From an uncultured Metabacillus sp. (lineage in GTDB: Bacteria > Bacillota > Bacilli > Bacillales > Bacillaceae), in assembly GCF_947503125.1 (NCBI RefSeq), contig NZ_CANNCR010000047.1:1-33408 (forward strand): a DNA stretch of 33,408 nucleotides, written 5' to 3'. This document shows positions 2,088 to 24,931 of this stretch, piece after piece. The notes under the pieces were generated by a model. It did no database searches, was not told where the DNA came from, and was given only the letters and a program-made list of their open reading frames with translations. The translations under genes were made by a program, and so were the position numbers. Position 1 is the stretch's first letter. The number at the start of each line of letters is the position of its first letter.

Positions 2088-2127
2088 CTTTTCTTCTCCT
2101 ATGTAAAAAGGAGATCAAATGCTCCTC

Positions 2128-5155: not shown

Positions 5156-5179
5156 TTCGTGATTACGACTTTTTAACCA

Positions 5180-6565: not shown

Positions 6566-6577
6566 AAAATCCCTCCA

Positions 6578-6607
6578 TAAAAAAATCAGGACACTTGGTC
6601 CTGATTT
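6578..6607 (-). terminator. Intrinsic terminator in the manC leader (attenuator candidate)
   Basis: On the minus strand ATCAGGAC-CAAGT-GTCCTGAT forms a perfect 8-bp stem (10 bp counting flanking A-T pairs) with a 5-nt loop. It is followed directly by seven T residues and then, two bases later, by the GGAGGG Shine-Dalgarno site of manC. Only about 13 bases separate the T-tract from the ATG, so no promoter fits between. Any transcript that expresses manC must read through this hairpin. Confidence 0.85.
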
Positions 6608-6825
6608 AATTTTAAATAAATGTTATGATCGCTCGTATAATATTTATAACTTACGACCTATTAAATAATATTTATTTGGCAATTCTACATAATAGACAAT
6701 AATTTTAAATCATCAGTTTTTGGCTTGAAGGTTAACCCTAGAACAACTACGTTCACCCATTTTAAATCATCAAAATATTTTCGATATTTTTAAATAATTT
6801 GATCTATTAATTTTTATTTATTTCT

Positions 6826-8046: not shown

Positions 8047-8192
8047 CTAAACACCTATCTTTAACTATTCAAATAGAATGAGATTTTTAATATAAGAACT
8101 ATTGTTAATCCATCTGTTTAGAAAAACAATTATTTTGTCATCAGTTTTTATTTATCGGAAAACCCCTCACTAGCTAATTGGACTACCTAAAA

Positions 8193-9752
8193 TTACAACA
8201 TGTTTTCATTTTGCCTTTTAAAAACTTTTCTTTTAAGATTAACAACCAATTTAAAAAGTAGTTTTCTTATAAAAACATATTCCTCTGTTCGATGTAAGAC
8301 TAATACGTTAATAATAGTAACAATAAACCAACAGATAATCCCACCAATAATCACTTTAAAATATGAATTTTCTAAAGGTATTATTTTTATCATTACAAAA
8401 CAAATAAATGTATTAAAAGAGAAAAGTAATATATAAACCATCTGACGGGCCCAATATTTAATAAATGTAGTCTTCAAATCACAAAAATAGTACTTAAATA
8501 CTATTATACTTCTTGCTATCCAAAAAAAGGATTGACTTATAACAGTTCCAATTAACACTCCAGAAACACCGTAAAAAAAAGCTAACGCTATCGAAATAAT
8601 AAGATTTAGTATTGCACCCATTATTGAAATCTTTTTATCATAAGAGAAATAACCTAATCCGGCGATATAGTCAACCAATGCTCCATGAACAAAAGTGATA
8701 TACAATTCTACAACTATAAGTAAAGTTATATAAATGGGTAATACATAGTCTCCAGAAAGCCATACCATAATAAAAGAATCAATTAGTACTACTCCTGGAA
8801 TAAAAAGGAAACTACAACATAAGTATCTAATGAAAGTATATTTATTAAGCACCTTCAAAATATGTTCTTTATTATCATTTTGAGTTAATAATTCACCTAT
8901 AATAGGCTTATTAGAATTTAAAACATTATTTAGTACGTATTTTAACTGAATAAATATCTGCGTATAATTAGATAAAAATCCAACATACACAGTTCCCACT
9001 ACAGTCGAAATAACTAAGGCATCTGTTGAATAGTATATATACCCAGCAATTTTCCCCCAAAAAATATCTTTCACATCTTTGAATATTTTTGAGAAATATT
9101 CCTTATTAAATTTTTTATTTTTAAAATTATAATCAAAATGTTTATCACAATACCTAGCTATAGATATATTAGTAAGTAAGTTTTGGGCAAAAACAATTAA
9201 AACATAAGCAAGGTAACTAGAGAAAGATATAATAAAAACAATGTGTAATATTGATGCAAGCAACTTATATGCCGAAATGTATATATTTCTTACATAATCC
9301 AGTTTTAATGCATAAATTAAAGTCCTTTTATAACCTAAAAAATAGGTAATTGCAACACTCATTACCTGTAAATAATAGACAATATATATATATATATTAA
9401 CCTCTACGCCCTTTAAAATCTGGGGTAAAAATGGCATTATCCAAAGTCCTGCAACTAGAACAAAAATTCCAACAAATGTATATACTCTTTTTAGTATAAC
9501 TATAATATCTTCGACTATCTCTTTTTTATTCTCAGAAATTGGTTTATACAGACTATATATTATAGCCCCTTCAAAGCCTAATTCTGCAACGGCTAAAGCA
9601 CCTAAAATAGAACTGAATGTACCATTAATTCCAAGCAATTCAATTCCAATGTAAACTATAAACAATTTACGTACAACGAATTGTAACAAAATATCAGATA
9701 CTTGACACAGAAAAGTAATAGAACTATTCTTTAATGCCAATTTTCCCCTCAT
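8193..9752 (-). CDS. Wzx-type polysaccharide flippase (MOP superfamily)
   Basis: This polytopic protein of about 519 residues has some fourteen hydrophobic segments. Its N-terminal region, LGINGTFSSILGALAVAELG, is typical of lipopolysaccharide-biosynthesis and Wzx proteins of the MOP superfamily. It would flip undecaprenyl-diphosphate-linked repeat units across the membrane. I prefer the ATG at 9752 over the GTG nine bases earlier, because GAGGTG lies at correct spacing before the ATG. The end is basic (KRKVFKRQNENML). Its neighbour wzy is the expected partner. Confidence 0.85.
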   Translation of the reverse strand: MRGKLALKNSSITFLCQVSDILLQFVVRKLFIVYIGIELLGINGTFSSILGALAVAELGFEGAIIYSLYKPISENKKEIVEDIIVILKRVYTFVGIFVLVAGLWIMPFLPQILKGVEVNIYIYIVYYLQVMSVAITYFLGYKRTLIYALKLDYVRNIYISAYKLLASILHIVFIISFSSYLAYVLIVFAQNLLTNISIARYCDKHFDYNFKNKKFNKEYFSKIFKDVKDIFWGKIAGYIYYSTDALVISTVVGTVYVGFLSNYTQIFIQLKYVLNNVLNSNKPIIGELLTQNDNKEHILKVLNKYTFIRYLCCSFLFIPGVVLIDSFIMVWLSGDYVLPIYITLLIVVELYITFVHGALVDYIAGLGYFSYDKKISIMGAILNLIISIALAFFYGVSGVLIGTVISQSFFWIARSIIVFKYYFCDLKTTFIKYWARQMVYILLFSFNTFICFVMIKIIPLENSYFKVIIGGIICWFIVTIINVLVLHRTEEYVFIRKLLFKLVVNLKRKVFKRQNENML

Positions 9753-9781
9753 TAATGACACCTCATATTATATTTAATAAC

Positions 9782-10645
9782 CTATTGTAATTTCGCATTT
9801 ATCTTTGTCCACTCTGGTAAATAAAATTCCTCTTTCCACATATCTACTACCGGAGCAATTACAACCTTATCCTTGTGAGAGGCTAAATATGCTGCCCACC
9901 ATGAGAATGAACTATTACCTATTATGAGGTCTTTACATTTTGTCATTAGAGAAAACTCTTCTAAATCATTCAATTTTGCTTCTTCAGCCACAAATTTAAC
10001 ATTGCCCAAATTTGCAAAGACATCCTTGCAGTATTTAACATCATCTGTAAAAATAAAAAATGTAAGGTTAGATTTTCTTGTATTTGTTAAATAATTAATT
10101 GCTTTCATATAATAAGACATATCAAGACATTTTCCACCTTTAAAATTAACATAATCTCCACGTCTTATATGAACAGCAACAGAATTACCCTTCTCAATTT
10201 CATTAAGTAAAGACTTACCATGTTCATTAAAATTCACCACCGGTGTGAATTTTTCAACTATATCATCGCGATATTTATCAAAATACAAATAGTTTTGCCA
10301 ATAACCATTTAAATACAAATTTTTACCTTTATTATCAATATGTTGATACTTGAATTCTTCTTCTTCTAATATTACTTGAGCCTTATACTTGTATTTTATT
10401 CTAATTTTTCTTATCAACTTGTATAAATATTGTGAAACATTACTTTGAGAAGGAACGTAATTTACAACATGTTCATCGACAATTGAAGGGAAATTATTAA
10501 GCATATATTTTCTTAAAAAGTAACTTGTATCATATATATATCGATCAATAACTAATTCTGTATTATTTTCTTTTGCAATTCCATAAGCAGCTGCGTATGA
10601 AAACAATTGATTACCTAATCCACCTTTAATTTGAACAATTATCAT
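9782..10645 (-). CDS. Alpha-1,2-fucosyltransferase-like GT11 glycosyltransferase
   Basis: The 287-residue protein starts with VQIKGGLGNQLFSYAAAYG, the hallmark N-terminus of GT11 enzymes. It contains VHIRRGDYV (about residues 157-165), the conserved HxRxGDY GDP-fucose-binding motif, and GNSSFSWWAAYLA (about 243-255) near the C-terminus. It should transfer L-fucose from GDP-fucose to the growing lipid-linked unit in the cytoplasm. The donor is made by manC, gmd and fcl in the same locus, which makes the functional assignment stronger than for the other transferases. AGGTG precedes the ATG. It ends 29 bases before wzx begins. Confidence 0.88.
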   Translation of the reverse strand: MIIVQIKGGLGNQLFSYAAAYGIAKENNTELVIDRYIYDTSYFLRKYMLNNFPSIVDEHVVNYVPSQSNVSQYLYKLIRKIRIKYKYKAQVILEEEEFKYQHIDNKGKNLYLNGYWQNYLYFDKYRDDIVEKFTPVVNFNEHGKSLLNEIEKGNSVAVHIRRGDYVNFKGGKCLDMSYYMKAINYLTNTRKSNLTFFIFTDDVKYCKDVFANLGNVKFVAEEAKLNDLEEFSLMTKCKDLIIGNSSFSWWAAYLASHKDKVVIAPVVDMWKEEFYLPEWTKINAKLQ

Positions 10646-10652
10646 ATTACAC

Positions 10653-11585
10653 CTACGCCAATCTTAATTTTATTATTTTTTTTAAAGAAAATAGATTTGG
10701 ATGACTTAATAAAAAATTCTGTCCCTTGGCTTTTAAAATTTTCTTATCATTATTATTTTCTACTAAACGTGCAACACCAATAAATATATTAATATTCCTT
10801 CTTACAAATTCTAACATTAAGTTCTTTAGTTCAACATTTTCATTAATTCTAAGATATGCGTCATATGATCTAATTATATTTGTATACGCGCCTTCCAAAT
10901 GCTTAATACTTTTCTTTTGTGTCATAGTAGATAATTCTCTGATCCTTCTACAATGGAGGATTTTGTTTTGGTATGTTATCTTAGGTTTCTCAAATAATAT
11001 CTGCATAGTAAAAATTCTATCTTCATATAATACACTTTCAAACTGAATATTAGATTTCTTTAAGAACTCTATATCATAAAAATACAACCACACAGGAATA
11101 TAAAATTTATTGTGCTTTAAACTCTCATACAAGTATTCTATTCCCATCATGTTTTCACGCAAAAATTCTCTGTTACTATAATCAACAATAAACTCAGAAG
11201 TATCATATTTATCTACTCTAGAGTTAAATGTAACAATGTCAGAATTATTTTTCTTAGCAACAGTATAGACTTTTTCCATTGCATCTCTTACTAAATAATC
11301 GTCACTATCTAAAAAATAAATATAACGACCTCTAGCCATTTTCATTCCTTTATTCCTTGCAATACCTTGTCCACTATTATTTTGCCTTATATAAACAACG
11401 TTGGTATATTCTTTTGCATATTTTTTAGCAATCTGCGAACTATTATCTGTACTACCATCATCTATAAGAATTATTTCAATATCTTTTAATGTCTGCTGCA
11501 AAATACTTACTATTGCATCTTCTAAATATAATTCTTCATTGTAAAAAGGTATTATAACACTTATTTTAAATTCATTACTTTCCAT
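10653..11585 (-). CDS. Family 2 glycosyltransferase (GT-A)
   Basis: It is about 310 residues. It starts with ISVIIPFYNEELYLEDAIVS and the GT-A signature IEIILIDDGSTDNS, followed by NSGQGIARNKG and the DxD-type metal site FLDSDDYL (about residues 94-101). This is a classical inverting GT2 fold adding one sugar in the cytoplasm. The C-terminal part is basic with no clear membrane segment. The ATG at 11585 is preferred over the adjacent GTG, with GGGATAAG upstream. It ends seven bases before the fucosyltransferase start, so the two are co-transcribed. Sugar specificity cannot be inferred. Confidence 0.85.
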   Translation of the reverse strand: MESNEFKISVIIPFYNEELYLEDAIVSILQQTLKDIEIILIDDGSTDNSSQIAKKYAKEYTNVVYIRQNNSGQGIARNKGMKMARGRYIYFLDSDDYLVRDAMEKVYTVAKKNNSDIVTFNSRVDKYDTSEFIVDYSNREFLRENMMGIEYLYESLKHNKFYIPVWLYFYDIEFLKKSNIQFESVLYEDRIFTMQILFEKPKITYQNKILHCRRIRELSTMTQKKSIKHLEGAYTNIIRSYDAYLRINENVELKNLMLEFVRRNINIFIGVARLVENNNDKKILKAKGQNFLLSHPNLFSLKKIIKLRLA

Positions 11586-11697
11586 CACATCTTATCCCTT
11601 ATAATATTTAGTTAATCCGTAATAGGTCGGAATTCTTCAATCTAATCCACAATTTCTGGAATCATATTGTTATAAAACTCTTTAGCAACTATCCGTT

Positions 11698-12705
11698 TTA
11701 CTTAATAATTCCATCTTTAATTTTATATTTATTTTTCAAAATAATACTTCTTATAGGCTTAGCTATAATTGATATTAAAGACCTAGTTAAAGTGTATAAA
11801 TTATTATTTGGTTTACCTAATATACTTAACAAAATAAAGCCTATTTCTTTAATTGTTAAATGTCTATATTTTTCCAAATCCTGTTTAGCCTTTAATAGAG
11901 TTTTTACTGATTCCTTTCCGAAACAGCTCTGTAATAACATTGCATATTCATTTGTATAGTATTTATTCAATTCATCCTTACTTAGTTTTGATAGAGCAAA
12001 TGCAAAATCTTTATAAAACTTTTGCTTAATATTGAACAACCTGTGATATTGTGGTATGTTGTTATAACCACCAACCGCTTTTACAATTAATAGTTCATCT
12101 AAACAACAAACTTTATAATGTTCAAAAAATCTTACCATAAACTCCACATCTTGCAATCTGTAATAAGAGACATCAAAATAGCCAATTTTATCTATAGATA
12201 ATTTTCTAAGAAAAAGATTACTTCCTGTTCCCATCATATTCACATTAAATAGTAACTCTTTTTGCATATTGGAATCGTCAATTTTAGGTTTTACTACTCT
12301 CAAGATATGTGTGTTATCTGTAGCTATTACTCCACAAAACACCGCATCACTATTTTTATTCTCAGTTAGAGTTTTTACACACATTTCCACTTTTGTTGGT
12401 AAGTAATAATCGTCATCATCTAAAAAACCAACAAATTCTCCTGTTGCTACTTTAATTCCACTATTTCTAGCCGCGGCACCATTTAAGTTAGTTTCATGCT
12501 TAATATATTTAATATTACTTTCTTTATATTCCTTCATTATTTTTTCAGTTTCAATTCTTTCCACAGACTCTGGAGGATTATCATCAACAACTATAATTTC
12601 TATATTGGCATATGTTTGTTCTAGTAAACTTCTTATCGCTCTTCTAATACAGTTAGAACCTTTATACGTAGTAATAATTATGCTTACTTTTTCATTATTA
12701 AACAT
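11698..12705 (-). CDS. Family 2 glycosyltransferase (GT-A)
   Basis: The 335-residue protein carries VSIIITTYKGSNCIRRAIRS, then IEIIVVDDNPPES, NLNGAAARNSGIKVA and the metal-binding FLDDDDYYLP (about residues 94-103). These are the ordered elements of the GT2 nucleotide-sugar domain. A C-terminal region of about 120 mostly basic residues follows. AAGGAG lies six bases before the ATG. A 112-base gap separates it from the next GT2 gene downstream. The sequence identifies the fold and the inverting family, not the sugar. Confidence 0.84.
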   Translation of the reverse strand: MFNNEKVSIIITTYKGSNCIRRAIRSLLEQTYANIEIIVVDDNPPESVERIETEKIMKEYKESNIKYIKHETNLNGAAARNSGIKVATGEFVGFLDDDDYYLPTKVEMCVKTLTENKNSDAVFCGVIATDNTHILRVVKPKIDDSNMQKELLFNVNMMGTGSNLFLRKLSIDKIGYFDVSYYRLQDVEFMVRFFEHYKVCCLDELLIVKAVGGYNNIPQYHRLFNIKQKFYKDFAFALSKLSKDELNKYYTNEYAMLLQSCFGKESVKTLLKAKQDLEKYRHLTIKEIGFILLSILGKPNNNLYTLTRSLISIIAKPIRSIILKNKYKIKDGIIK

Positions 12706-12746
12706 TGTATCTCCTTATCCTACTATCTAATTTCTTTAGCAGGTAA

Positions 12747-12869
12747 TTAAGCAGCATGTACAGCTTTTATTTCCGAGAAAAAAGTATAATTAACCTTGCT
12801 GCATTTTATTCTTGTCTGCTGTTCTTTTAAAATTCCTATAACCTTTGCTCCAACACCAAGTTGTACTTC
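12747..12869 (-). pseudogene. Possible hexapeptide acyltransferase remnant
   Basis: Just after the stop of the upstream GT2 gene, the minus strand has 40 open codons starting EVQLGVGAKVIGIL. This resembles the left-handed beta-helix repeats at the C-terminus of serine acetyltransferase-type enzymes (V-x-I-G-x-G-A-K-V-x-G). The rest does not match, and no start codon or Shine-Dalgarno site is present. It may be the scar of a deleted acyltransferase gene in the cassette. The similarity is short, so this is tentative. Confidence 0.3.
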
Positions 12870-12870
12870 A

Positions 12871-13740
12871 CTATTTATTTAATAACAAATATCTAAAGAA
12901 GTTTTTATAAGACATTCTATATCGCTTATCTATAGAAGTTTTAAATGCATCGCGAACACCGGATTTATATTCTGAAAAAGTTTTCAATGTTATAGCTCTA
13001 TACAAATATGCCAATAAATAGTAAAGAAGATATGTTCCTCCACCCACAGGATGCATTTCACGGATTACAAATAACCTATTCCTTACTTTGTAGTAAAATC
13101 TTTTATTATCAACGATCCTTGTGATTGGCGTTACTCGATGCACAATTTCTACAGAACCAGTATATAGTACTGGAAGTTCATTATTTCCAAACATTTTCAT
13201 TACTAATTCAGTTTCTTCAAATCCAAAGAACATATCATTTGAGTAGCCATTTACACTTTTAAAGAAACTCTTCTTAATTGCATGTCCACAACCAATATAT
13301 TTATTACATTCAAAGGTTTCTTTTCGTTTTTTTAAAAGTTTTTTACCATATGGCCAATGAAATAATCCACCTTCCAAATCCTTAATTTGAAATGCAAATA
13401 TTTTATGAGGATTTTTATCCATGATATTCTCTATCTCAGATAATGCGCTTAATGAAACAAAGTGGGCATCATCATCTAAAAATATCATATTTTCAAAAGA
13501 TGCATAACGTACTCCTACATTTCTACCGCCAGCAACTCCAAGGTTCTTTTCCAATTTAATGTATACTACGTTATCATCATTTAAATGGGAAACAGCCTCT
13601 TCAGTTCCGTCAATAGAATTTTGATCGATTATGATAATTTCTAATACACCTGAATAATCTTGCTTTTTCAGGGTTTCTAAAGTGTGAATTAATTCATTTT
13701 TTCTATTGTACGTAATAATAATTAACGATAATCCTCTCAT
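12871..13740 (-). CDS. Family 2 glycosyltransferase, rhamnosyltransferase-like
   Basis: It is 289 residues from the ATG at 13740, which has AAAGAGG seven bases upstream. A longer frame to 13779 lacks a ribosome-binding site and overlaps the previous gene. The domain starts with LSLIIITYNRKNELIHTLET and continues with IIIDQNSIDGTEE, NLGVAGGRNVGVRYA and FLDDDAHF (metal site, about residues 82-89). FFGFEETELVMKM (about 190-202) corresponds to the acceptor/catalytic ED-type motif of rhamnosyltransferase-like GT2 enzymes. A C-terminal hydrophobic patch may touch the membrane. The transferred sugar is unknown. Confidence 0.84.
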   Translation of the reverse strand: MRGLSLIIITYNRKNELIHTLETLKKQDYSGVLEIIIIDQNSIDGTEEAVSHLNDDNVVYIKLEKNLGVAGGRNVGVRYASFENMIFLDDDAHFVSLSALSEIENIMDKNPHKIFAFQIKDLEGGLFHWPYGKKLLKKRKETFECNKYIGCGHAIKKSFFKSVNGYSNDMFFGFEETELVMKMFGNNELPVLYTGSVEIVHRVTPITRIVDNKRFYYKVRNRLFVIREMHPVGGGTYLLYYLLAYLYRAITLKTFSEYKSGVRDAFKTSIDKRYRMSYKNFFRYLLLNK

Positions 13741-13756
13741 ATAAATACCTCTTTTT

Positions 13757-14245
13757 TTAACCTTGTTCAATAAAATCAATCACTAATTTATTCATCTTAC
13801 TGTTATTGGAAACAAATTTACTTGGTACAAATGAATCTAACTCTTGAATACATTTAACCAATTCTTTCTTGTTTTTTGCACATAACACATTTTTGTTTCG
13901 AGTAAAAACTTCAGCCAACTCCAACTGATGATCATCATAATGTTCATCATATTGAGCCATCCTTGGGAAGATAATAACTTTCTTACCTTTCTTTAAACAT
14001 GAAGTAACTGTACCAGTTCCTGCATGAGAAATTATCAGGTCTGACTCATCAATAAGCTTTTTAAACTCTTCATCTGCAATCATATCAAAGGCTTTAAAAT
14101 TTTTAGGTTTATAGGCATCGAATCCAATTTGGGCGACTACCAGGTTACCATTCAAAATATTTTCTTCGCAGAGTTCATCAATAATATTGAATAATCTCGT
14201 AAACTTTTTTTCGACCATTGAACCGATTGTAACAAGAACTTTCAA
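13757..14245 (-). CDS. PssE/Alg13-like glycosyltransferase subunit
   Basis: About 162 residues form the catalytic donor-binding half of a split GT28-type enzyme. The N-terminus KVLVTIGSMVEKKFTRL and the C-terminal block SDLIISHAGTGTVTSCLKKG match the Alg13/PssE/EpsF type. Its partner is the preceding gene (PssD/Alg14-like), which anchors it to the membrane. A TTG at 14245 is the likely start: GGAGG lies nine bases upstream and the TTGA overlaps the partner's stop. The in-frame ATG at 14254 sits too close to the Shine-Dalgarno site. In streptococcal and rhizobial systems such pairs add the second sugar of the repeat unit; that role here is inference. Confidence 0.82.
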   Translation of the reverse strand: MKVLVTIGSMVEKKFTRLFNIIDELCEENILNGNLVVAQIGFDAYKPKNFKAFDMIADEEFKKLIDESDLIISHAGTGTVTSCLKKGKKVIIFPRMAQYDEHYDDHQLELAEVFTRNKNVLCAKNKKELVKCIQELDSFVPSKFVSNNSKMNKLVIDFIEQG

Positions 14246-14712
14246 TATATCCATCCTCCATAAACAGCTTTAGGATAATAATTTTCTAATTCTTCCCATT
14301 GAATAATAAACAAATCGGCAATTTTATAGATGAGCATTCCTGTCTTATTTGGAGTATTAATTCGGGCAAAACTTTCTATATAAATTACCTTTTTTTTGAA
14401 AACTTTACCTATTATACACATAGGAATAGCAACTGCTGCTCCAGTTGTAATGATAACATCAGGCTTTTCTTTTAAGAAAATACTCAGTTGTTCAATCATC
14501 ATTTTCGCCATTCTCATTACCGAAATAAATTTATTAGTGCGTACCAAGTCACTGACTATATACTTTTTTTGTTTCATCGCTTCGGTAGCTTTTGTACGAG
14601 TGACTACATAGAAGCAATCATAACGATCCATAACTTCCTTTAGCTGTTTAATTTGCTCTAAATGGCCACCAGAAGATGATATCAAACATACTATCTTTCT
14701 CCTCTGTTTCAC
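14242..14712 (-). CDS. PssD/Alg14-like glycosyltransferase membrane subunit
   Basis: About 156 residues carry ISSSGGHLEQIKQL near the N-terminus, VVTRTKATEAM, and a hydrophobic PDVIITTGAAVAIPMCIIGK. IYIESFARINTPNKTG follows. This is the full signature of Alg14/PssD/Cps14F proteins, which recruit the Alg13-like catalytic subunit to the membrane. A GTG at 14712 with AGGAAGG eight bases upstream fits better than the upstream TTG, which lacks a ribosome-binding site. The four-base overlap with the next gene implies translational coupling, as expected for obligate partners. Confidence 0.84.
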   Translation of the reverse strand: MKQRRKIVCLISSSGGHLEQIKQLKEVMDRYDCFYVVTRTKATEAMKQKKYIVSDLVRTNKFISVMRMAKMMIEQLSIFLKEKPDVIITTGAAVAIPMCIIGKVFKKKVIYIESFARINTPNKTGMLIYKIADLFIIQWEELENYYPKAVYGGWIY

Positions 14713-14929
14713 TCTCAATACCTTCCTAATCTTATATTTATACAATTTTTCAAGTTACATCTTTGTAAGAATACCTGATACAAGCTATTCAAAAAACAAT
14801 GCATCAAATAAAAAGATTATAACAATGATACTCACAATACCAAAAATATTTATATTAAATTCAAAAAATACTTAGAATTACGGAATACATATCACATTTG
14901 TATTATACGTAATATAAAGTAGCTTTTAA

Positions 14930-16195
14930 TTAGCACGACTTAATCTCTTCTACATACTTTTTTATAGAAACATCCTTAGTAAGATTCTTTTCCAAATAAG
15001 CCCTACCTCGCTTACCCATTTCAGTCAAAGTAGAAGTACCTTTTTCCTTTAGAAACCTCTCGATCATAGCTTCTACTTCTTCGTAGTTACCCGGATTAGT
15101 CACATACCCACACTGGGTCTCTTCTATAATTAATCGTGCTTCTGCACCAGGCTCTAATACCGCAAGCACAGGTCGCTGAGCCCCACAAATCCCATACAAT
15201 TTCGATGGAACTGAAACACCTTTAATGCCTTTTGCTGATACACACCAGTGAACATCACCGGCATTCAGGCTGTAGACTAGATCTGCTTTATCCTGATAAG
15301 GGATGAAAGTAACATTTTTGAGGTTGAATTTTTCCTTATATAGAACCAGCTTATCTCGGATAGAACCCTCTCCTACAAATGCGAAAGCCACATCATCCCT
15401 ATCTTTAAACTTCTTAATGACATGCATTAAGTTCTCAAGGTCATAATAGAGGCCTAGATTACCAGAGTACATTATGATAAATTTATTTTCCAATCTGTAT
15501 TTCTTTTTGAAAGCTACCACTTTTTCATTATCGGAAGGCAGAGGATAAATTTCCTTCTCATCAATCCAGTTATTGATAAACATATGATTCGGTACCTTCT
15601 GTCCTTTGAATCTACTCTTCAGAGTTTCAACCATATCACGACCTACAACTATTACCTTGTCAGCACGTTTACAACTAAATTTATCGAACCATAACATTGC
15701 TTTCAGAATTAGTTTATTATTACTATATCCAACAGCCATGGTCTGCTCCGGATTGAAGTCCTGAATATTGTAAATGAACTTTGCTTGCTTCATCCATTTA
15801 CCCCAAACGCCAATCAGACCTCCAAGGATAGGCGGTTGAGAAATGGAATACACATAATCCATCTTTCCAACTTTAAATGTGGCAACCATAGCTCCAAAGA
15901 AGTATGCTATGATATTTTTAATTCTGCTGATTTTGTTGCCCTTAGAGAATTCTGGAACACGGATTCGGATAATCTTTACACCGTTGATTTCTTCCTTATA
16001 AAACATCTTTGTCTTATACTCAGTAGCAACCTTGCCTGTATAAGAAGGAACGACACAAATTATTGTTATATCAAATGCATGAAGCATTCCTTCTGCCAAT
16101 TCTCTTAAAATCTGACCTGTGGAAGCGACATCTGGAATGTAGTAATGTGCATATATTAAAAGCTTCTTCTTTTCAGTCTTTATCTTTTCAATCAT
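14930..16195 (-). CDS. Family 4 glycosyltransferase, WbuB-like
   Basis: It has about 421 residues from the ATG at 16195, with AGGGAAGAG upstream. The longer frame starts at a TTG without a ribosome-binding site. It has the GT-B arrangement. The N-terminal half has LLIYAHYYIPDVASTGQILR and YSISQPPILGGLIG. The C-terminal half has MYSGNLGLYYDLENL and KGVSVPSKLYGICGAQRPVL, the EX7E-region equivalents of WbuB-type GT4 enzymes. WbuB relatives transfer fucosamine or similar amino sugars to lipid-linked intermediates, so it may act early in assembly. It is the first gene of the AT-rich transferase cassette, 184 bases before the PssD/PssE pair. Substrate is not proven. Confidence 0.85.
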   Translation of the reverse strand: MIEKIKTEKKKLLIYAHYYIPDVASTGQILRELAEGMLHAFDITIICVVPSYTGKVATEYKTKMFYKEEINGVKIIRIRVPEFSKGNKISRIKNIIAYFFGAMVATFKVGKMDYVYSISQPPILGGLIGVWGKWMKQAKFIYNIQDFNPEQTMAVGYSNNKLILKAMLWFDKFSCKRADKVIVVGRDMVETLKSRFKGQKVPNHMFINNWIDEKEIYPLPSDNEKVVAFKKKYRLENKFIIMYSGNLGLYYDLENLMHVIKKFKDRDDVAFAFVGEGSIRDKLVLYKEKFNLKNVTFIPYQDKADLVYSLNAGDVHWCVSAKGIKGVSVPSKLYGICGAQRPVLAVLEPGAEARLIIEETQCGYVTNPGNYEEVEAMIERFLKEKGTSTLTEMGKRGRAYLEKNLTKDVSIKKYVEEIKSC

Positions 16196-16721
16196 GTGTA
16201 TCTCTTCCCTATCTGTTGAGGCTCCATCCATATGCATCGATGGCAAAGATTAGACTACAATAGCCTCTATATACTTGTCTTTCGTTTAATCTCTCTTGTA
16301 AGGTCCCGACTTTATACCTATTTTCGAAAACGGCTTCAAGCTCATTACCGTATCAATTACTCTCTCAAATAAGATAAGAGATTTATCTCTCTTGTTTTAT
16401 GAAGTAAAACCAATTCGATAATTTAATTTCTGGTCAATTACTTCACTTATATCATATAATAGGTATTTTTAAATACGTGCCTAATTTATACCTAAACATT
16501 ATTGTACTTTTCATCTCTTAGAATGAACTCAACGTTATAAAACAAGCTTTTCTACTAATAAAGGAACTAGCTTGTACTGTACAGAATCTTACCGAGACTA
16601 TTATCACTGATTTCCGAACTAGATACTTGAAGTAGTTTCATGCTTCTCTTTATATATCACGTTCTGCTTATATTATTTTAATTAAATCTTATTTCAACAT
16701 AAATTGCTGAACTAAATATAA
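16196..16721. other. Long gap between gmd and the transferase cassette
   Basis: No gene is convincing. On the minus strand, short open stretches without a usable start lie at about 16287-16400 and up to about 16330-16200. They look like possible coding scars but resemble nothing I can name. There is an inverted repeat GTATTT-TT-AAATAC at 16463-16476, next to TATTAT/TATAAG-rich sequence, and a short AGAGAT palindrome at 16377-16390. A promoter for the cassette could be here, but I see no strong -35/-10 pair. Confidence 0.3.
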
Positions 16722-16781
16722 AGACGGCTGACTGTTTGGATGTACACATTATTGCTTTACCATCCTTACGGCTAGCCGTCT
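16722..16781 (-). terminator. Terminator-like stem-loop after gmd
   Basis: AGACGGCT at 16774-16781 (read on the minus strand) pairs with AGCCGTCT at 16722-16729, with an inner GGATG/CATCC pairing. The stem is followed by TTTATATTT. A local 12-nt palindrome ACGGCTAGCCGT at 16769-16780 offers an alternative fold. It lies about 20 bases after the gmd stop and could end that transcript or act as an internal attenuator. Confidence 0.6.
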
Positions 16782-16801
16782 CTGATCATACAATCTAAAT
16801 C

Positions 16802-17881
16802 TTAATCAAACATCTTCTTAACTCTATCTTCTTTCTCAACCTTTTTCATATCATGAGTTACCATAATACGAACTAACTCTTCAAAAGAGGTTTTAGTAGG
16901 ATTCCATCCCAATAAAGTTTTTGCTTTCGTAGGATCACCTAACAATTGATCAACCTCTGCTGGACGGAAGAATTTAGGATCAATCTCAACAATTACATCT
17001 CCTGTTTCCTTATTGACTCCTTTTTCCTCAACACCGTTTCCAGTCCATTCAATTTCAATCCCCGTATGTTTAAATGCTAATTCTACATACTCTCGAACAG
17101 AATGCATTTCACCAGTTGCAATTACAAAGTCCTCTGGTTTGTCATGCTGAAGAATTAACCACATACATTCAACATAATCTTTTGCATAACCCCAATCACG
17201 TAATGAATCTAAGTTACCTAGTGTTAGGTTCTTTTGTTTACCTTGTGCAATACGTGCTGCTGCGAGTGAAATTTTTCTAGTTACGAATGTTTCTCCACGA
17301 CGTTCTGATTCATGATTAAATAATATACCATTTACTGCAAACATGTTGTAAGATTCTCGGTAGTTCTTCGTAATCCAGAATCCATAGATTTTCGCTACAC
17401 CATATGGTGAACGTGGATAGAAAGGTGTTGTTTCTTTTTGTGGAACTTCTTGAACCTTTCCATATAGTTCAGATGTTGAAGCCTGATAGATACGAGTTTT
17501 CTCTGTTAATCCTAAGATACGTACCGCTTCAAGAATATTTAATGTACCCTTTGCATCTACATCTAATGTGTATCCTGGCATATCAAAGGAAACCCGTACA
17601 TGTGATTGAGCTGCTAGATTATAGATTTCATCAGGTTGTGTATCTCCTATAATTTTCGTTACATTTAAAGCATCTGTCACATCACCATAATGTAGGTGAA
17701 AGTTTTTGTTATTTAGTAACGCTTTCGCTTCTTCTTCACTAAGTAGATCCTCTAAACGCTCTTGGTTATAGGAAGAGGCTCTTCGAATAAGACCGTGTAC
17801 CTCATACCCTTTTTCTAATAAAAATTCAGCTAAGTAAGAACCATCTTGTCCTGTTATACCAGTAATTAATGCTTTTTTCAT
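16802..17881 (-). CDS. gmd: GDP-mannose 4,6-dehydratase
   Basis: It converts GDP-mannose to GDP-4-keto-6-deoxymannose, the first committed step to GDP-L-fucose. The 359 residues match the family length. The N-terminus has the NADP-binding loop [17 protein letters not shown] and then [11 protein letters not shown]. The catalytic tyrosine and lysine are in [14 protein letters not shown], with the serine/threonine in [27 protein letters not shown] is strictly typical of Gmd. GGAGG lies before the ATG. It follows fcl by 36 bases in the same operon. Confidence 0.96.
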
Positions 17882-17917
17882 AATGTCCTCCGATACCTCA
17901 TTTATCTATTATTTTAA

Positions 17918-18859
17918 TTAGTTAACTTTTGCTGTTACGTTATCTAAAAACCATTGGTAAGCTTTTTCTAATCCGTCTTCTAAAGTTGTATTTGCTTTCC
18001 ATCCTAAAGAATTCAATTTTGTTACATCAACAAGCTTACGCGGTGTTCCATCAGGCTTGCTGGTATCAAATTGAATTTCTCCTTCATAGCCAACAACTGC
18101 TTTGACTTTTTGAGCTAGTTCCTTTATGGAGATATCTTCGCCAACACCGATATTTACGATTTCATTTCCTTTATAATGATTAATTAAATAAACACAAGCG
18201 TCAGCTAGATCATCTGAATATAGGAATTCACGTTTAGGCGATCCTGTACCCCACACTTCAACAAATGGAGCATTCGTTTTCTTTGCTTCATGAAATTTGC
18301 GTATAAGTGCAGGTAATACATGTGATGTATGCAAATCAAAATTGTCATTTGGTCCATATAGGTTCGTTGGCATAACCGAAATATATTTAGTCCCATATTG
18401 ACGATTATAGGACTCACACATTTTAATTCCCGCAATTTTCGCAATCGCATATGGTTCGTTTGTAGGCTCTAACTCGCCAGTAAGCAAGTATTCTTCCTTC
18501 AATGGTTGTTGCGCAAATTTCGGATAAATACATGTACTTCCTAAAAATAATAACTTTTCAACACTATTTCGATAGGCAGCATCAATGATGTTTGCTTGAA
18601 TTAATAAATTATCTCTTATAAAATCAGCTGGATATTCATTGTTCGCTACAATGCCGCCAACCTTAGCTGCTGCTAAGAATACATAATCCGGTTTTTCTGT
18701 TTCAAAAAATTGATCAACTTGACCTTTATCACGTAAATCTAATTCTTTGCTAGTTTTATATACTAAGTTCGTATACCCTTCATTTTCCAATCTTCTTACA
18801 ATAGCTGATCCAACTAGCCCTCTGTGGCCAGCAACATAAATCTTTGAATCTTTTTTCAT
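17918..18859 (-). CDS. fcl: GDP-L-fucose synthase
   Basis: This is the epimerase/reductase that turns GDP-4-keto-6-deoxymannose into GDP-L-fucose with NADPH. The 313 residues are the standard length. The cofactor loop is [16 protein letters not shown], the serine region [12 protein letters not shown] and the catalytic pair [28 protein letters not shown] and [15 protein letters not shown] are conserved substrate-site blocks. It sits 36 bases upstream of gmd and 16 bases downstream of the initiating sugar transferase, so the pathway genes are in one operon. Confidence 0.96.
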
Positions 18860-18875
18860 CTATTTTCACCCTATC

Positions 18876-19559
18876 CTAAAAAGCATTTTTTGATCCGAAT
18901 AATACAATCACGGTTTTAAAAATAATCTTTAAATCAAACAAAAAGCTGCGATTTTCAATATAATATAAGTCCATTTCGACCATTTCTTCAAAACCAACAC
19001 TGTTTCTTGCACTAGCTTGCCAAACACCCGTACATCCAGGAGTTACAAGTAATCTTTGCATATGATATGGAGTGTATTCTTCGACTTCCCTCAGTAATGG
19101 TGGTCTCGGTCCTACTAGACTCATATCACCCTTTAATACATTGAATAATTGAGGTAATTCATCAATACTTGTTTTTCTTATAAACCTGCCAACCTTTGTT
19201 ACTCTAGGGTCATCCTTCATTTTAAACATGGCACCCTCTATTTCATTAAATTTCAGCAATTCTTCAAGCTTTGCCTCCGCATCAGTCTCCATTGAGCGGA
19301 ATTTATACATTTTAAACTCTTTTCCGTTTTTACCGATTCTTTTTTGAGAAAAAAAGATCGGCCCTTTCGGATCTTCAAATTTTATGAGTAATGCAACGAT
19401 GAATAATATGAAACTTAAAAGGACTAAACCAACTAGTGCACCAACAATATCTAAAGATCGCTTGGAAAAGGTATAGATGACACTTTGCTTTGCAAATTCT
19501 GCGGTGAGTGCTTCCTTTGAAGATGTATGAACTGAATCATGTTTTACTAGGTTTGACAT
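18876..19559 (-). CDS. Undecaprenyl-phosphate sugar-1-phosphate transferase
   Basis: This polyprenyl-phosphate hexose-1-phosphate transferase (short WbaP/EpsL class, about 227 residues) starts the lipid-linked repeat unit. One hydrophobic segment (KRSLDIVGALVGLVLLSFIL) forms the membrane re-entrant helix. PIFFSQKRIGKNGKEFKMYK and FRSMETDAE form the catalytic head with the Asp-Glu dyad region. DELPQLFNVLKGDMSLVGPR is the family signature, followed by TPGCTGVWQ. The ATG at 19559 has GAGGAG upstream; the in-frame GTG at 19577 directly abuts the galU stop and has no ribosome-binding site. The first sugar is probably glucose or galactose phosphate, which is not decided by sequence. Confidence 0.92.
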   Translation of the reverse strand: MSNLVKHDSVHTSSKEALTAEFAKQSVIYTFSKRSLDIVGALVGLVLLSFILFIVALLIKFEDPKGPIFFSQKRIGKNGKEFKMYKFRSMETDAEAKLEELLKFNEIEGAMFKMKDDPRVTKVGRFIRKTSIDELPQLFNVLKGDMSLVGPRPPLLREVEEYTPYHMQRLLVTPGCTGVWQASARNSVGFEEMVEMDLYYIENRSFLFDLKIIFKTVIVLFGSKNAF

Positions 19560-19577
19560 CTCATTCGCTCTCCTCAC

Positions 19578-20459
19578 CTACAGTTTTACTTTTTCGTTAG
19601 CTACTAGTTTCTCCATCAGCTCGAGAAGCTGCTCTTTTAGGTCGTCATGTTTTAATGCAAATTCAATCGTTGTTTGAATAAAGCCAAACTTCTCACCTAC
19701 GTCATAACGAACTCCTTCAAAGTCGTAAGCATAGACAGATTGTTCTTCATTTAAATGTTGAATGGCATCTGTTAGCTGAATTTCCCCGCCGGCACCTGTT
19801 TCTTGATTTTCTAATATTTCGAAGATTTGAGGAGTCAATATGTATCGACCCATAATCGCCAAATTCGATGGTGCAGTCCCTTTGGCAGGTTTTTCAACAA
19901 ACCGATTTACTTTATGAAGCTTCCCGTCCTTCTCTAATGGATCAATGATCCCATAACGGTGTGTTTGATCATCTGCAACATTTTGAACACCAATGACCGA
20001 AGAACCTGTTTTTTCATATTCATTAATAAGCTGTTTTAAGCAAGGTATATCTCCTTCAACAATGTCATCACCAAGTAAGACAGCAAACGGCTCATCCCCA
20101 ATAAACTTTCTCGCACACCAAACTGCGTGTCCAAGTCCCTTCGGTTCCTTTTGGCGAATATAATGAAGATTGATTTCAGATGAGTGCTTCACCTTTTCCA
20201 AAAGGTCGTATTTCTCTTTATCAATCAGATTCTGTTCTAGCTCAAAGTTATGATCAAAATGATCTTCGATAGCCCGCTTTCCTTTACCGGTTACGATAAT
20301 GATATCTTCAATTCCAGAAGCGATGGCTTCTTCGATAATGTATTGAATTGTTGGCTTGTCTACAATAGGCAGCATTTCCTTTGGCATTGCCTTTGTTGCA
20401 GGTAAAAATCGTGTTCCCAGTCCTGCTGCTGGTATAATTGCTTTTTTAACTTTTTTCAC
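19578..20459 (-). CDS. galU: UTP-glucose-1-phosphate uridylyltransferase
   Basis: It makes UDP-glucose from UTP and glucose-1-phosphate. The 293 residues carry [20 protein letters not shown] (nucleotide loop), [27 protein letters not shown] (metal site) and [20 protein letters not shown], all characteristic of bacterial GalU/GtaB. GTG is used as the start, with AAGGGGG upstream. It lies between ugd and the sugar transferase, feeding UDP-glucose to Ugd and possibly to the initiating transferase. The Bacillus name for this family is also gtaB. Confidence 0.95.
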
Positions 20460-20476: not shown

Positions 20477-21805
20477 TTATCTAACATTGACTAATTTTTT
20501 ATTTATTACGGTTGGTCTACCCATTGAGTGATATTCGATAGGATAGTTTTCAACTTGCTTAGGATCATAGCAATTTCGACCATCAAAAATAACTGGCTGC
20601 TTCATACACTTTTCAAATGTTTCTAAGTCTAAATCTTTAAATTCATTCCATTCCGTTAAAATTAACGCAACATCTGCATCCTTTAATACTTCAATAGTGC
20701 TTGAAACATATTGAACCTTCGAATCCAGTAGTTTTTTAGCATTTTCCATCGCTACTGGATCATACGCAACAACAGTTGCCCCTTTTTGAATTAACTGTTT
20801 TGTAATAACAATCGATGCCGCTTCTCTCATATCATCCGTATTTGGCTTAAATGCTAATCCCAATACTGCAACCTTCTTACCTTCTAAGCTATCAAATCGT
20901 TTATCTAATTTATTTAATAGAATTTCCTGTTGCTTTTGATTTACACGAATAACACCTTTTAGCAATTCAAATTGATAATCAACATTGCCAGCAATTTGCA
21001 CAAGTGCTTTTGTATCTTTCGGGAAGCAAGAACCGCCATAACCAATTCCTGCATTTAAAAATTGCGAACCAATTCGGTTATCCTGCCCCATTCCATTGGC
21101 TACATCCTCTACATTCGCTCCAACCTTTTCGCAAATGTTTGAGATTTCGTTTATAAAGCTAATCTTTGTTGCAAGAAAGGCATTTGCTGCATATTTAATC
21201 ATTTCAGCACTGCGAATATCTGTTTTAAAAACAGGAATACCAAAAGGCTTATTAATTTCCTCTAGCGTAGATGCAGCTGCTTCATTATCTGCTCCGATGA
21301 CGATACGATCGCCATTAAAAGAATCATAAATTGCAGACCCTTCACGTAAAAATTCAGGATTTGAGACAATGTCAACCTTCACATTGTTCACAAGATTCAT
21401 TTGAATAACTTCTTTAATCCAGTCATTCGTTCCCACAGGTACTGTGCTTTTCGTCACAACAATGACATTCTTTTTAACATGAGTTGCAATGTCCTTAGCT
21501 ACTTGTTCAACAAATGAAAGATTAGCTGATCCATCTTCTTTTTCTGGAGTGCCGACAGCGATATAAATCACATCAGCATTTTCAAAGCCTTCATGATGAT
21601 CTGCCGTAAAAAACAAACGCTTTTCCTCAATGTTTTTCTTCATTAGTTCATCTAAGCCTGGCTCATAAATTGGCGATATCCCTTCACGCATTTTATTTAC
21701 TTTATTTTGATCAATATCAATGCATGTCACCGTATGTCCAATCTCAGATAAGCATGTACCAGTTACTAAACCTACATAGCCAGTTCCGACTACAGCAATT
21801 TTCAT
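20477..21805 (-). CDS. ugd: UDP-glucose 6-dehydrogenase
   Basis: It oxidises UDP-glucose to UDP-glucuronate with two NAD+. About 442 residues include the NAD loop [40 protein letters not shown] and the catalytic cysteine in [14 protein letters not shown] (about residue 257). The conserved [13 protein letters not shown] lies in the C-terminal domain. The ATG at 21805 is preceded by AAAGGTG; the GTG at 21814 lies inside that site. In B. subtilis the ywqF/tuaD enzymes are activated by tyrosine phosphorylation by the neighbouring BY-kinase. The same gene order here (adaptor, kinase, phosphatase, dehydrogenase) suggests similar control. Confidence 0.95.
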
Positions 21806-21843
21806 AATGTTCACCTTTTCCTATTAAAATAAAAGTAAAATAG

Positions 21844-21883
21844 TTAACGGAAAAGTACTTTTATATAAGTACCCTTTCGTTAA
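21844..21883 (-). terminator. Terminator-like hairpin upstream of ugd
   Basis: Arms TTAACG/CGTTAA and GTACTT/AAGTAC combine into a stem of about 17 bp with a 6-nt loop. The two plus-strand mismatches (53/74 and 54/73 of 218xx) become G-U pairs only in minus-strand RNA, which favours function on the minus strand. The stem is followed by a T-rich run (CTATTTTACTTTTATTTT) ending just before the ugd Shine-Dalgarno site. It is the first structure after the candidate RNA at 21908-22036. Confidence 0.6.
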
Positions 21884-21907
21884 ATATCTCTTTCATATTT
21901 AGTAAGC

Positions 21908-22036
21908 ATATAAATAAATGGGCATCTAACCCACCCTCACATCCCACTACCGACAACAAGTGTCTAAGGTACCGAAGGCACCCACAGCGTGACCGAGTGC
22001 CTCCATTGATAACGGTTAGGAGACATCACCAATGAA
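21908..22036 (-). ncRNA. Candidate structured cis-RNA (EAR/epsC-like?)
   Basis: The phosphatase-ugd gap contains about 120 bases that are clearly richer in GC and pairing than the surrounding AT-rich gaps. On the minus strand I can draw three helices. GAGGCACTC (22003-21995) pairs with GGGTGCCTT (21983-21975) over nine base pairs. TGTCT (22025-22021) pairs with AGACA (21965-21961). CTAACC (22019-22014) pairs with GGTTAG (21931-21926). The last two cross and would form a pseudoknot. Bacillales eps operons carry a pseudoknotted antitermination RNA (EAR, also called the epsC motif) between early eps genes. Position and style fit, but I cannot align the consensus from memory, so identity with EAR is inference. 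Confidence 0.5.
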
Positions 22037-22040
22037 CAAC

Positions 22041-22805
22041 TTAAAATATCCCTAGAAACTTCTTGCGTTTAATTTGCCTTGGCTCTTGTTTATACACGGT
22101 TTTTCCATGTATGAGAAGTTCAGCATTTTCATGAAAGAAATAAACTGCCTGTCTCCCAAACTCCTTTTCTACAACAGAAATCGATTCTCTCATTCGAAAG
22201 CTTCTCGTTGAGATATTATGGGCATCCGAAGAGATAAAATGAGTTTGGTTCGTTTCAATCAATTGCATCGAAAACTTTTGAATTTTCTTACCAAAGTGTC
22301 CTGTTATACTCCCCGCAGTAACCTGTGTTAGAGAGCCTTTCTTAACTAAGTTGAATAATATTTCAGGATTTTCAATCAATTCTGAATTTCTCTCTGGATG
22401 AACAATGACAGGAGTGAATCCTTTTAACTGAATATCAAATAGAAGCTTCTCCGTATATCTAGGAACATGTCCGGAAGGCAATTCAATAAACAAATAGTGT
22501 GAATGATTAAGAGGAAGAATATCTTCTTTGTCAAGGTCCTCAAGTAATTCGCCGTATATTCTTGTTTCCTGTCCCGGCAAAACCTCTAACGGAATATTCT
22601 CGTTTTGTAGAATGTTGTTAAGCTCAACAACTTTCTCTAAAATATCTTGTTTCCTATTAACATACTTTCCATTCTGATGATGAGGTGTAGCAATGATCTT
22701 CGTAACGCCTTCTTCTACAGCTAACTTAGCCATATTTATCGCATCTTCTACCGTTTGTGCACCATCGTCCACTCCAGGTAAAATGTGACTATGTATATCA
22801 ATCAA
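22041..22805 (-). CDS. ywqE: CpsB/YwqE-type tyrosine-protein phosphatase (PHP domain)
   Basis: A manganese-dependent PHP-fold phosphatase that removes phosphate from the BY-kinase and its targets. About 254 residues start with IDIHSHILPGVDDGAQ (metal-binding HxH and D) and continue with IIATPHHQNGKY. VLPGQETRIYGE, PVIVHPERNSEL and FISSDAHN complete the metal site. A TTG at 22805 gives the canonical start M-I-D-I-H, with GGGGGCGGG just upstream; the open frame extends to a GTG at 22820 that lies inside that purine-rich site. It lies 124 bases downstream of the kinase, separated from it by a two-tier hairpin. Confidence 0.92.
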   Translation of the reverse strand: MIDIHSHILPGVDDGAQTVEDAINMAKLAVEEGVTKIIATPHHQNGKYVNRKQDILEKVVELNNILQNENIPLEVLPGQETRIYGELLEDLDKEDILPLNHSHYLFIELPSGHVPRYTEKLLFDIQLKGFTPVIVHPERNSELIENPEILFNLVKKGSLTQVTAGSITGHFGKKIQKFSMQLIETNQTHFISSDAHNISTRSFRMRESISVVEKEFGRQAVYFFHENAELLIHGKTVYKQEPRQIKRKKFLGIF

Positions 22806-22908
22806 ACTACCCGCCCCCACTTAGAATTTATTGGTTATTATTTAATTCTATTTTCCTATAACTTTTCCATACTTTTAAACCTTGCATTGAAAAAACGCAA
22901 AGAAAAGA

Positions 22909-22941
22909 GGGGGATCTCGTCAAGCGAGACTATTTTCCCCC
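22909..22941 (-). terminator. Two-tier hairpin overlapping the kinase stop codon
   Basis: On the minus strand an outer GGGGG/CCCCC stem (22937-22941 with 22909-22913) encloses an inner TCTCG/CGAGA stem (22925-22929 with 22915-22919). The kinase stop codon TAG lies in the internal loop. The stem is followed by TCTTTTCTTTG. It may act as a weak terminator, an RNA-stabilising or processing site, or a way to lower phosphatase expression relative to kinase. Confidence 0.5.
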
Positions 22942-23640
22942 GTAGTAGTAATAATATTGACTGTCTTGAACCTTCTTGTTGTTTAATACCACACCGAGTA
23001 TTTTTGCTTTGGCACTTTCAAGTAGCTCTTTTGCCTTCTTTGCAGACTCTATCTCTGTTTTTCCGCTGCTCACAACGAGAACTACACCATCAGTTAAGTT
23101 TGACAATACTTGCGCATCTGTTACAGCTAATACCGGTGGCGAGTCAAAGATAATGACATCATACTCATCCTTCGCCTGCTCGATCATTGCCTGCATTCCT
23201 TTTGAACCTAATATTTCCGATGGGTTTGGAGGAATCGGACCGCTGGATAATATCCAAAGTTTATCTTGAGATGTTGTTTGAACTGCCTCTTCAAGTGTCG
23301 ATTGTCTTGTTAACACGTTTGATAATCCAATATGATTTTCAAGTCTAAAAGTATAGTGCACGGTTGGTTTACGTAAATCTGCATCTACTAATAGGACACG
23401 TTTTCCTTGCTGTGCAAACACAACAGCTAAGTTTGCAGTTGTTGTTGACTTTCCTTCTCCTGGACCTGATGAAGTGACAATCATCGTTTGCAGCTCTTCA
23501 TCAACACTGGAAAATTGTATATTGGTACGAATGGTCCGAAATTGTTCTGCAATTGGCGACTTCGGATTTGTCATCGAGATTAAGCTTCTATTTTGCAATT
23601 GGAATAATTGCTTCCGATCCTTACGAGCCAACAGACTCAC
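22930..23640 (-). CDS. ywqD: BY-kinase, CpsD/YwqD-type tyrosine-protein kinase
   Basis: This is the cytoplasmic catalytic half of a bacterial tyrosine kinase that controls polysaccharide polymerisation. The 236 residues include Walker A TSSGPGEGKSTTTANLA (about 55-71), Walker A' VLLVDADLRKPTVH and Walker B YDVIIFDSPPVLAVTDA. They end in the autophosphorylated tyrosine cluster DSQYYYYYGGK. The open frame starts at GTG 23640; a TTG nine bases later, closer to GAGGTGAG, is an alternative. It overlaps the end of its membrane adaptor by 20 bases, as is usual for the two-gene Firmicute system. Confidence 0.93.
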   Translation of the reverse strand: MSLLARKDRKQLFQLQNRSLISMTNPKSPIAEQFRTIRTNIQFSSVDEELQTMIVTSSGPGEGKSTTTANLAVVFAQQGKRVLLVDADLRKPTVHYTFRLENHIGLSNVLTRQSTLEEAVQTTSQDKLWILSSGPIPPNPSEILGSKGMQAMIEQAKDEYDVIIFDSPPVLAVTDAQVLSNLTDGVVLVVSSGKTEIESAKKAKELLESAKAKILGVVLNNKKVQDSQYYYYYGGK

Positions 23641-24367
23641 CTCGCGTTCTTAACGTTGTTGTTTGACTAGGTTGTTCCTTCATTTCATCATTCATATTAA
23701 TCGTTGTAATTGCGCCTAAAACTGGAAGGCCAAGTTGATTTTCAATATCTTGTTCCGTTTTAATTGTGTTATCTAAGTATTCAAGTAAGAATGCTAAGCC
23801 TACACCAACCATTAAGCCAACCACTAATGCAATCGCCATATTTAGCGCCGGCTTTGGTTTTATCGGTGATGGATCTTCACCAATTTGCGCTTGTGTTAGG
23901 ATTGTAACATTATCCACATTCATAATTTTAGAAACTTCCGTTTGAAAAGTTTTCGCAATGGAATTTGCAATCGCTGCTGCTTGTTTTGGATCTTCATTTT
24001 GAACAGCGATATTAACAACTTGAGAGTTTTGTTCACTAGATACGGTAACTAATTCATTAAGCTCTCCAGATGTCATATCTAGTTTTTGTTGTTGAATTAC
24101 TTTATCTAAAATAGCAGGGCTTTTAATAATAACATTGTACGTATTAATCAATTGAAGATTCGTTTGAACTTGGTTTGCACTGTATAACTGTTCTTCACTT
24201 TGTGTTTGGTTTACAAGAATTTGTGTTGAAGACTGATAAATTGGTGTTAGGAGAAAATAACTAACGATTCCGCTCGTTGCCGTTGCAATGGCTGCGATGA
24301 TTATAATAAGAGAAAGACGTTTCTTTAATGTGAGAAACAGCTCTTTCAAGCTGATTGTTTCTTCCAT
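23621..24367 (-). CDS. ywqC: Wzz-domain membrane adaptor of the tyrosine kinase (YwqC/CpsC type)
   Basis: About 248 residues. A basic cytoplasmic N-terminus is followed by a first membrane helix (LSLIIIIAAIATATSGIVSY), an extracytoplasmic Wzz-type domain (STQILVNQTQSEEQLYSA onward) and the proline-rich PSPIKPKPALNMAIALVVGL before the second helix. A short cytoplasmic tail activates the kinase. It sets chain length and stimulates YwqD. The ATG at 24367 with GGAGG five bases upstream is the start; the longer frame to 24391 would begin upstream of that site. It is the first gene of the minus-strand locus. Confidence 0.92.
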   Translation of the reverse strand: MEETISLKELFLTLKKRLSLIIIIAAIATATSGIVSYFLLTPIYQSSTQILVNQTQSEEQLYSANQVQTNLQLINTYNVIIKSPAILDKVIQQQKLDMTSGELNELVTVSSEQNSQVVNIAVQNEDPKQAAAIANSIAKTFQTEVSKIMNVDNVTILTQAQIGEDPSPIKPKPALNMAIALVVGLMVGVGLAFLLEYLDNTIKTEQDIENQLGLPVLGAITTINMNDEMKEQPSQTTTLRTRGESVGS

Positions 24368-24412
24368 GATAACCTCCAAAATTTTAATCAATTATAGTAA
24401 TAAGACTAGACT

Positions 24413-24920: not shown

Positions 24921-24931
24921 TTTATCCATGG

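Follow-up and report, generated by a model that had tools for sequence, protein, structure and literature searches.

The minus strand of a polysaccharide locus from an uncultured Metabacillus sp. carries the EAR RNA (Rfam family RF01735, epsC), a known kind of RNA that very probably serves as a processive antitermination element near the beginning of an operon for capsule or exopolysaccharide synthesis, letting polymerase read through later terminators. What may be new is the strong hairpin that follows EAR in most of the relatives examined. Positions refer to the window, the whole analyzed stretch of 33,408 nucleotides, and the features are collected in the table below; surveyed loci are cited by L numbers.

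Coordinates of EAR, its helices, the neighboring genes, and the hairpins discussed
Feature	Positions	Strand	Basis or details
EAR / epsC RNA (RF01735)	21919..22031	-	cmscan, full length
EAR pseudoknot	22013..22031	-	22031-22028 (UGGU) with 22016-22013 (ACCG); 5' end and helix-1 loop
EAR helix 1	21998..22025	-	22025-22019 with 22004-21998; 857/868 cells paired; both-side changes 29 vs 3.3 shuffled
EAR helix 2, enclosing helices 3 and 4	21936..21997	-	21997-21986 with 21948-21936; covariation
EAR helix 5, 3'-terminal hairpin	21919..21933	-	584/620 cells paired; both-side changes 71 vs 25.0 shuffled
Post-EAR hairpin, terminator-like in the window	21837..21890	-	-17.6 kcal/mol
Wzz-type chain-length protein gene	23621..24391	-	Pfam PF02706
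BY-kinase-type ATPase gene	22930..23640	-	Pfam PF13614
CpsB/CapC-type phosphatase gene, upstream of EAR	22041..22820	-	Pfam PF19567, E 3e-59
ugd, UDP-glucose 6-dehydrogenase-type gene	20477..21814	-	Pfam PF03721, PF00984, PF03720
Remaining polysaccharide locus	1023..20459	-	Pfam
Canonical intrinsic terminator before manC ribosome site	6579..6607	-	AAATCAGGAC-CAAGT-GTCCTGATTTTTTT, read from sequence

EAR and its genomic setting

A covariance-model scan matched the RNA to positions 1-117 of the 117-position RF01735 model at 115 bits, against a curated gathering score of 42 bits, with E = 3e-21 for a 701-nt stretch and 1.4e-19 for the whole window. The matched sequence has a GC fraction of 0.54, lies in a 226-nt gap (21815-22040), and has the same orientation as the flanking polysaccharide genes. 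The first-pass annotation had described a GC-richer, structured minus-strand RNA in this gap and had offered EAR as a guess; both points are borne out, the match lying far beyond chance. EAR was the sole match in the window at the Rfam gathering threshold, and one copy was found in the organism's own genome. Six further matches in 21600-22300, to miRNA and snoRNA families, fell below their gathering scores (E of 0.9 to 5.8) and were taken as chance. The alternative proposal of a new structured leader that merely resembles EAR is highly improbable and was rejected: the helices initially described do differ from the EAR structure, but the match spans the whole Rfam model, and it is the EAR helices that covary, not the crossing helices of the earlier description. 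A riboswitch reading, both raised and doubted in passages of PMC2864571, found no support in this analysis.

The RNA is common among related bacteria. With the window's own genome included in each count, EAR was detected in 43 of 60 relatives, in 20 of 21 genomes of the genus, in 193 of 299 genomes sampled in the order, and in 5 of 249 genomes sampled in the phylum, all five of them within the class. The survey used below comprises 127 loci, namely the window, 56 relatives, 60 loci from the order sampling (mainly one per genus, among the matches listed), and 10 more, L195 having been dropped as a duplicate of L174; these loci include near-identical ones (e.g., L085, L086, and L088) and are not independent, and the counts are not corrected for kinship. 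One locus, L130 (3075-3287), holds a 213-nt EAR enlarged by an insertion of about 100 nt, which by eye falls in helix 3. A contig from a metagenome-assembled genome labeled Clostridia (L060) carries the EAR pattern and a strong hairpin after a CpsB gene, possibly as a mis-binned contig.

The Pfam content of the surrounding genes identifies a Wzy-type capsule or exopolysaccharide locus, in keeping with the mention of capsular operons in the title of the original EAR paper (Irnov and Winkler 2010). Beyond the individually tabulated genes, it encodes a galU-type nucleotidyltransferase, a bacterial sugar transferase, an epimerase, a GDP-mannose dehydratase (gmd), several glycosyltransferases including GT11, a Wzx-like flippase, a Wzy-like polymerase, manC-like and heparinase-like proteins, and a further glycosyltransferase. 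This gene content suggests a fucose-containing polymer, and one transcript would span the whole locus. The start of ugd is probably the ATG at 21805. The nearest named relatives of the CpsB protein occur in Bacillus sp. SA1-12 and Metabacillus species, which suggests a Metabacillus-type host. A tandem pair of DUF3221 proteins (24932-26082, minus strand) is encoded immediately upstream of the polysaccharide genes, and a phage-type integrase fragment (88-372, plus strand) was seen near the window edge.

Neighboring genes in the 127 loci were classified by blastp clusters, named either from window genes (CpsB, BY kinase, GalU, and Ugd) or from recognized sequence (EpsC-like). The gene before EAR belongs to the BY-kinase cluster in 54 loci and to the CpsB cluster in 51, with no upstream ORF called in four, while the gene after EAR is EpsC-like in 74, GalU in 26, and Ugd in 6. 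Since 51 of the 127 EARs follow a CpsB-cluster gene, a position after cpsB is ordinary; the position before ugd is a recurring minority, found after CpsB in five loci (the window, L103, L113, L124, and L125) and after a BY kinase in L134. The expectation of an unusual context for EAR is borne out only weakly, the context being mildly unusual.

A different arrangement was seen in seven loci, in which EAR is followed by a short frame with a type IV pilin-like N-terminus: L109 (3469-3855) and L118 (3697-4092), both with PF07963; L119 and L184, whose frames cluster with these; and L106, L133, and L129, with similar frames. The gene before EAR is galU-like in six of the seven and EpsC-like in L118, and none of the seven has a hairpin of -14 kcal/mol or below in the 120 nt after EAR. 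Elsewhere, the eps loci L085 (3614-3769), L089, L097, L101, L107, and L110, all of one genus, share a small ORF (MKEFDRFPKVMKKLVRYIKQ...; about 51 aa) that is conserved among them and placed after the post-EAR hairpin, ahead of the epsC-like gene; the L085 ORF had no Pfam match.

Covariation of the EAR fold and its pseudoknot

An alignment of 126 EARs (124 distinct) was made by sequence alone, omitting L130 with its long insertion, and pairs were counted against shuffled columns. The five Rfam helices are paired in 86.4 to 99.4% of cells, and each has more both-side changes than the shuffles (for helix 2, 1469 of 1488 cells paired and 83 both-side changes vs 15.9), although all loci were found via the Rfam model, so that these counts lean towards its structure, while the pseudoknot lies outside the model. 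Helix 3 is the least constant.

EAR contains a pseudoknot, because an NGGU/ACCN pairing between positions 1-4 and 16-19 of the RNA crosses helix 1. It is paired in 469 of 496 cells (403 shuffled) and shows 75 both-side changes, compared with 35.8 (sd 3.4) in shuffled columns; the outer pair is A-U, U-A, C-G, or U-G and the inner pair U-A, U-G, C-G, or A-U, with few others. This covarying helix is omitted from the Rfam structure line and is thus a checkable addition to it. A figure legend in Weinberg et al. 2010 (PMC2864571) credits a pseudoknot prediction to Winkler, presumably of the NGGU/ACCN pairing.

The first-pass annotation had also proposed a pseudoknot and suggested covariation as its check, and the outcome was divided: a pseudoknot exists, and it covaries together with the EAR helices, but it is not formed by the crossing helices that had been described. 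Across the 124 distinct EARs, 580 of 619 cells of UGUCU/AGACA are paired (581 on average when shuffled), and both-side changes number 2 (4.3 shuffled); for CUAACC/GGUUAG the values are 581 of 744 cells (579 shuffled) and again 2 (2.7 shuffled). The words are complementary, yet they pair as often as shuffled columns and do not covary, and both helices were rejected; they use bases of Rfam helices 1 and 4 and of helices 1 and 5, respectively. The 9-bp stem proposed alongside them could not be assigned to a particular Rfam helix without ambiguity.

The hairpin behind EAR

A terminator-like hairpin directly after the RNA, as anticipated from the window alone, proved to be a real and frequent companion of EAR. 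In the first 120 nt behind EAR, 95 of the 127 loci have a hairpin of -14 kcal/mol or below (the L124 hairpin, about 110 nt after EAR, being scored as absent), whereas 15 of 109 further gaps from these loci and 11 of 161 intragenic windows do; at -20 kcal/mol or below, the counts are 66 of 127, 0, and 0. The gaps used for comparison measure 70-600 nt, separate called ORFs downstream of EAR, and come mainly from loci with long downstream DNA, and the 120-nt windows can extend into the next gene. Most of the hairpins (87 of the 95) start 3-35 nt after EAR. A strong hairpin with a U-rich tail was found in 54 of 117 post-EAR sequences, as opposed to 5 of 702 dinucleotide shuffles. In another family of the class, represented by two loci, the outcome was divided, L207 passing the threshold narrowly (-14.6) and L206 falling short of it (-8.9).

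The stem is kept as structure and not as sequence in these strong hairpins. A set of seven similar hairpins, made up of the one in L182 and six from loci where ugd follows (that of L124 among them), was aligned to a 23-pair consensus stem in which 12 pairs show both-side changes, AACGAAA is invariant in the 5' arm, and the apex varies. The first-pass annotation had further noted that mismatches become G-U pairs only in the transcribed strand. This holds in the window, and the asymmetry is general. Of 96 post-EAR windows in which one strand or the other forms a strong hairpin, 79 have the fold that is more stable by >0.5 kcal/mol on the sense strand and 14 on the antisense strand (Wilcoxon p 3e-14, an optimistic value given the kinship of the loci), so that the transcribed RNA seems to be what selection acts on.

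It was considered whether the hairpin belongs to cpsB and not to EAR. Among 35 named CpsB loci, a sequence pattern detected EAR behind cpsB in 13. The hairpin is present in 11 of these 13 and in 8 of the other 22, several of the 8 looking by eye like ordinary operon ends. The comparison speaks against an origin with cpsB, but as a control it is weak, the pattern recalling 121 of 127 known EARs and one locus scored as lacking EAR (L056) seeming to hold a diverged one.

It is quite possible, if on balance doubtful, that EAR and the adjacent hairpin form a two-part device in which the hairpin is a terminator passed only by EAR-modified polymerase and so gates the operon; if true, EAR operons carry their own gate. 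A comparable arrangement is the phage antitermination site, behind which its first terminator comes next. The enrichment of strong hairpins over other gaps and intragenic windows, which at -20 kcal/mol leaves none in either, the excess of U-tailed hairpins over shuffles, the greater stability of the sense strand, and the both-side changes in about half of the consensus stem all favor such a device. So do individual loci: textbook terminators with clear U-runs follow EAR in L198-L200, and clear U-runs also occur in L037 and L038. U-tailed strong hairpins are commoner on the sense strand (67 of 127) than on the antisense strand (40 of 127), a difference that speaks for the device, but their frequency on the antisense strand at like strength speaks against it. 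Also unfavorable are the 32 of 127 EARs with no strong hairpin in the first 120 nt, the divided result from the other family, the stems of L079, L081, and L084, which have no U-run (a ribosome site follows the stem in L079 and L081), and the base composition around the stem: over 95 hairpins, U in the 3' flank (mean 2.61 of 8) is no richer than A in the 5' flank (2.65 of 8). In the window itself the tail is interrupted (ACUUUUAUUUU), and a simple terminator scanner run over 8000-26200 did not list this hairpin. Because a U-run is not general, the terminator reading counts as a rival only. The terminator-like post-EAR hairpins of L198, L199, L200, and L202 contain GAAAAGCGCTTACA or a near variant, which we take to resemble a catabolite-response (cre) site.

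Rather unlikely is a function unrelated to termination, in which the hairpin would serve RNA stability or processing, protecting or defining the 5' end of the mRNA segment that follows it. Conservation of the stem despite the lack of a general U-run fits this role, as does the sense-strand bias, which shows that the RNA form matters, and 43 of 95 hairpins have a word like a ribosome site beginning no more than 25 nt past the stem. Counting against such an element are the far higher frequency of the hairpin after EAR than in other gaps of the same loci and the many post-EAR hairpins that end in U-runs.

A broader proposal can be put forward tentatively: EAR may extend beyond its Rfam model and work, throughout Bacillales, as one half of a pair. 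The other half would be a hairpin, mostly 3-35 nt behind EAR, that evolves fast in sequence but keeps its structure and tests polymerase modification. No mention of a conserved post-EAR hairpin was found in the literature listings and passages searched, a set that does not comprise Irnov and Winkler 2010 or the Goodson and Winkler 2018 review.

Downstream terminators and the proposed action of EAR

A candidate for a later terminator that EAR could overcome lies 15.3 kb downstream of it, before manC. There, the ribosome site GGAGGG starts two bases after the U-run of a canonical terminator, leaving almost no room for a promoter, and a longer hairpin (6569-6621) surrounds the terminator. Transcription of manC from upstream would require polymerase to get past this terminator, as EAR reportedly allows. 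Among seven manC relatives inspected (90 nt upstream of each), two have a terminator in this place: L034 has the same terminator with sequence changes (before its first manC copy), and L090 has an unrelated one, with EAR 11.5 kb upstream on the same strand.

Passages of PMC7858274 describe antitermination by EAR at several distal intrinsic terminators of the B. subtilis eps operon and at heterologous ones, the activity is also stated in part of PMC2864571, and passages of PMC11658703 leave room for host factors in EAR action on RNA polymerase. Judged by this published behavior, the window's EAR would, once transcribed and folded, modify in cis the RNA polymerase that is elongating it, and the modified enzyme would read through later terminators, the first of them being the hairpin right after EAR and a later one the manC terminator. 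The canonical terminators at the manC ribosome site, which the window's type of operon and L090 have independently of each other, and the post-EAR hairpins would then be natural substrates for the EAR effect on RNA polymerase.

Antitermination by EAR is the best explanation of the locus in view of the full-length RF01735 match on the transcribed strand, the covariation of five helices and the pseudoknot, the breadth of EAR in the order, and the manC terminator, kept in L034 and independent in L090. Several observations count against it. Terminator-like sites in 8000-26200, a scan that leaves manC outside, number 11 on both strands, compared with 7.2 (sd 2.9) in shuffles, and some of the 11 are EAR's own terminal hairpin. 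The window's post-EAR hairpin is unlisted in that scan and has an interrupted tail, and the 3' flanks of such hairpins show no excess of U over the A of the 5' flanks. One terminator-like hairpin (22909-22941) precedes EAR, which could not help there, and a terminator before manC is found in only two of the seven relatives. Internal promoters may also lie in the long gaps at 16247-16801 and 4532-5179.

The window's element shares with EAR of the Bacillus eps operon its sequence, five helices, a pseudoknot, and a position early in a polysaccharide operon. It differs in preceding ugd instead of an epsC-type gene, and in having behind it a hairpin, outside the Rfam model, whose lower stem is AACGAAA...UUUC(C)GUU. 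The put RNAs of HK022, a phage of E. coli, are mentioned together with EAR in passages of PMC8955417 and PMC11658703; they are likewise antitermination RNA elements with no dedicated protein factor, the likeness being one of element type. LoaP and the ConAn1/conAn2 systems share with EAR processive antitermination of long operons but include a protein factor, according to passages of PMC7858274 and PMC8955417.

Two further features were seen downstream. The 555-nt gap that separates gmd from the glycosyltransferase gene after it (16247-16801, minus strand) has near its start a hairpin of -17.5 kcal/mol with a U-rich tail (16725-16778). Between wzy and manC, a short minus-strand frame (6685-6756) reads VNVVVLGLTFKPKTDDLKLLSIM before a stop and is ugd-like by eye; this decayed-ugd-like fragment suggests a past rearrangement of the locus.
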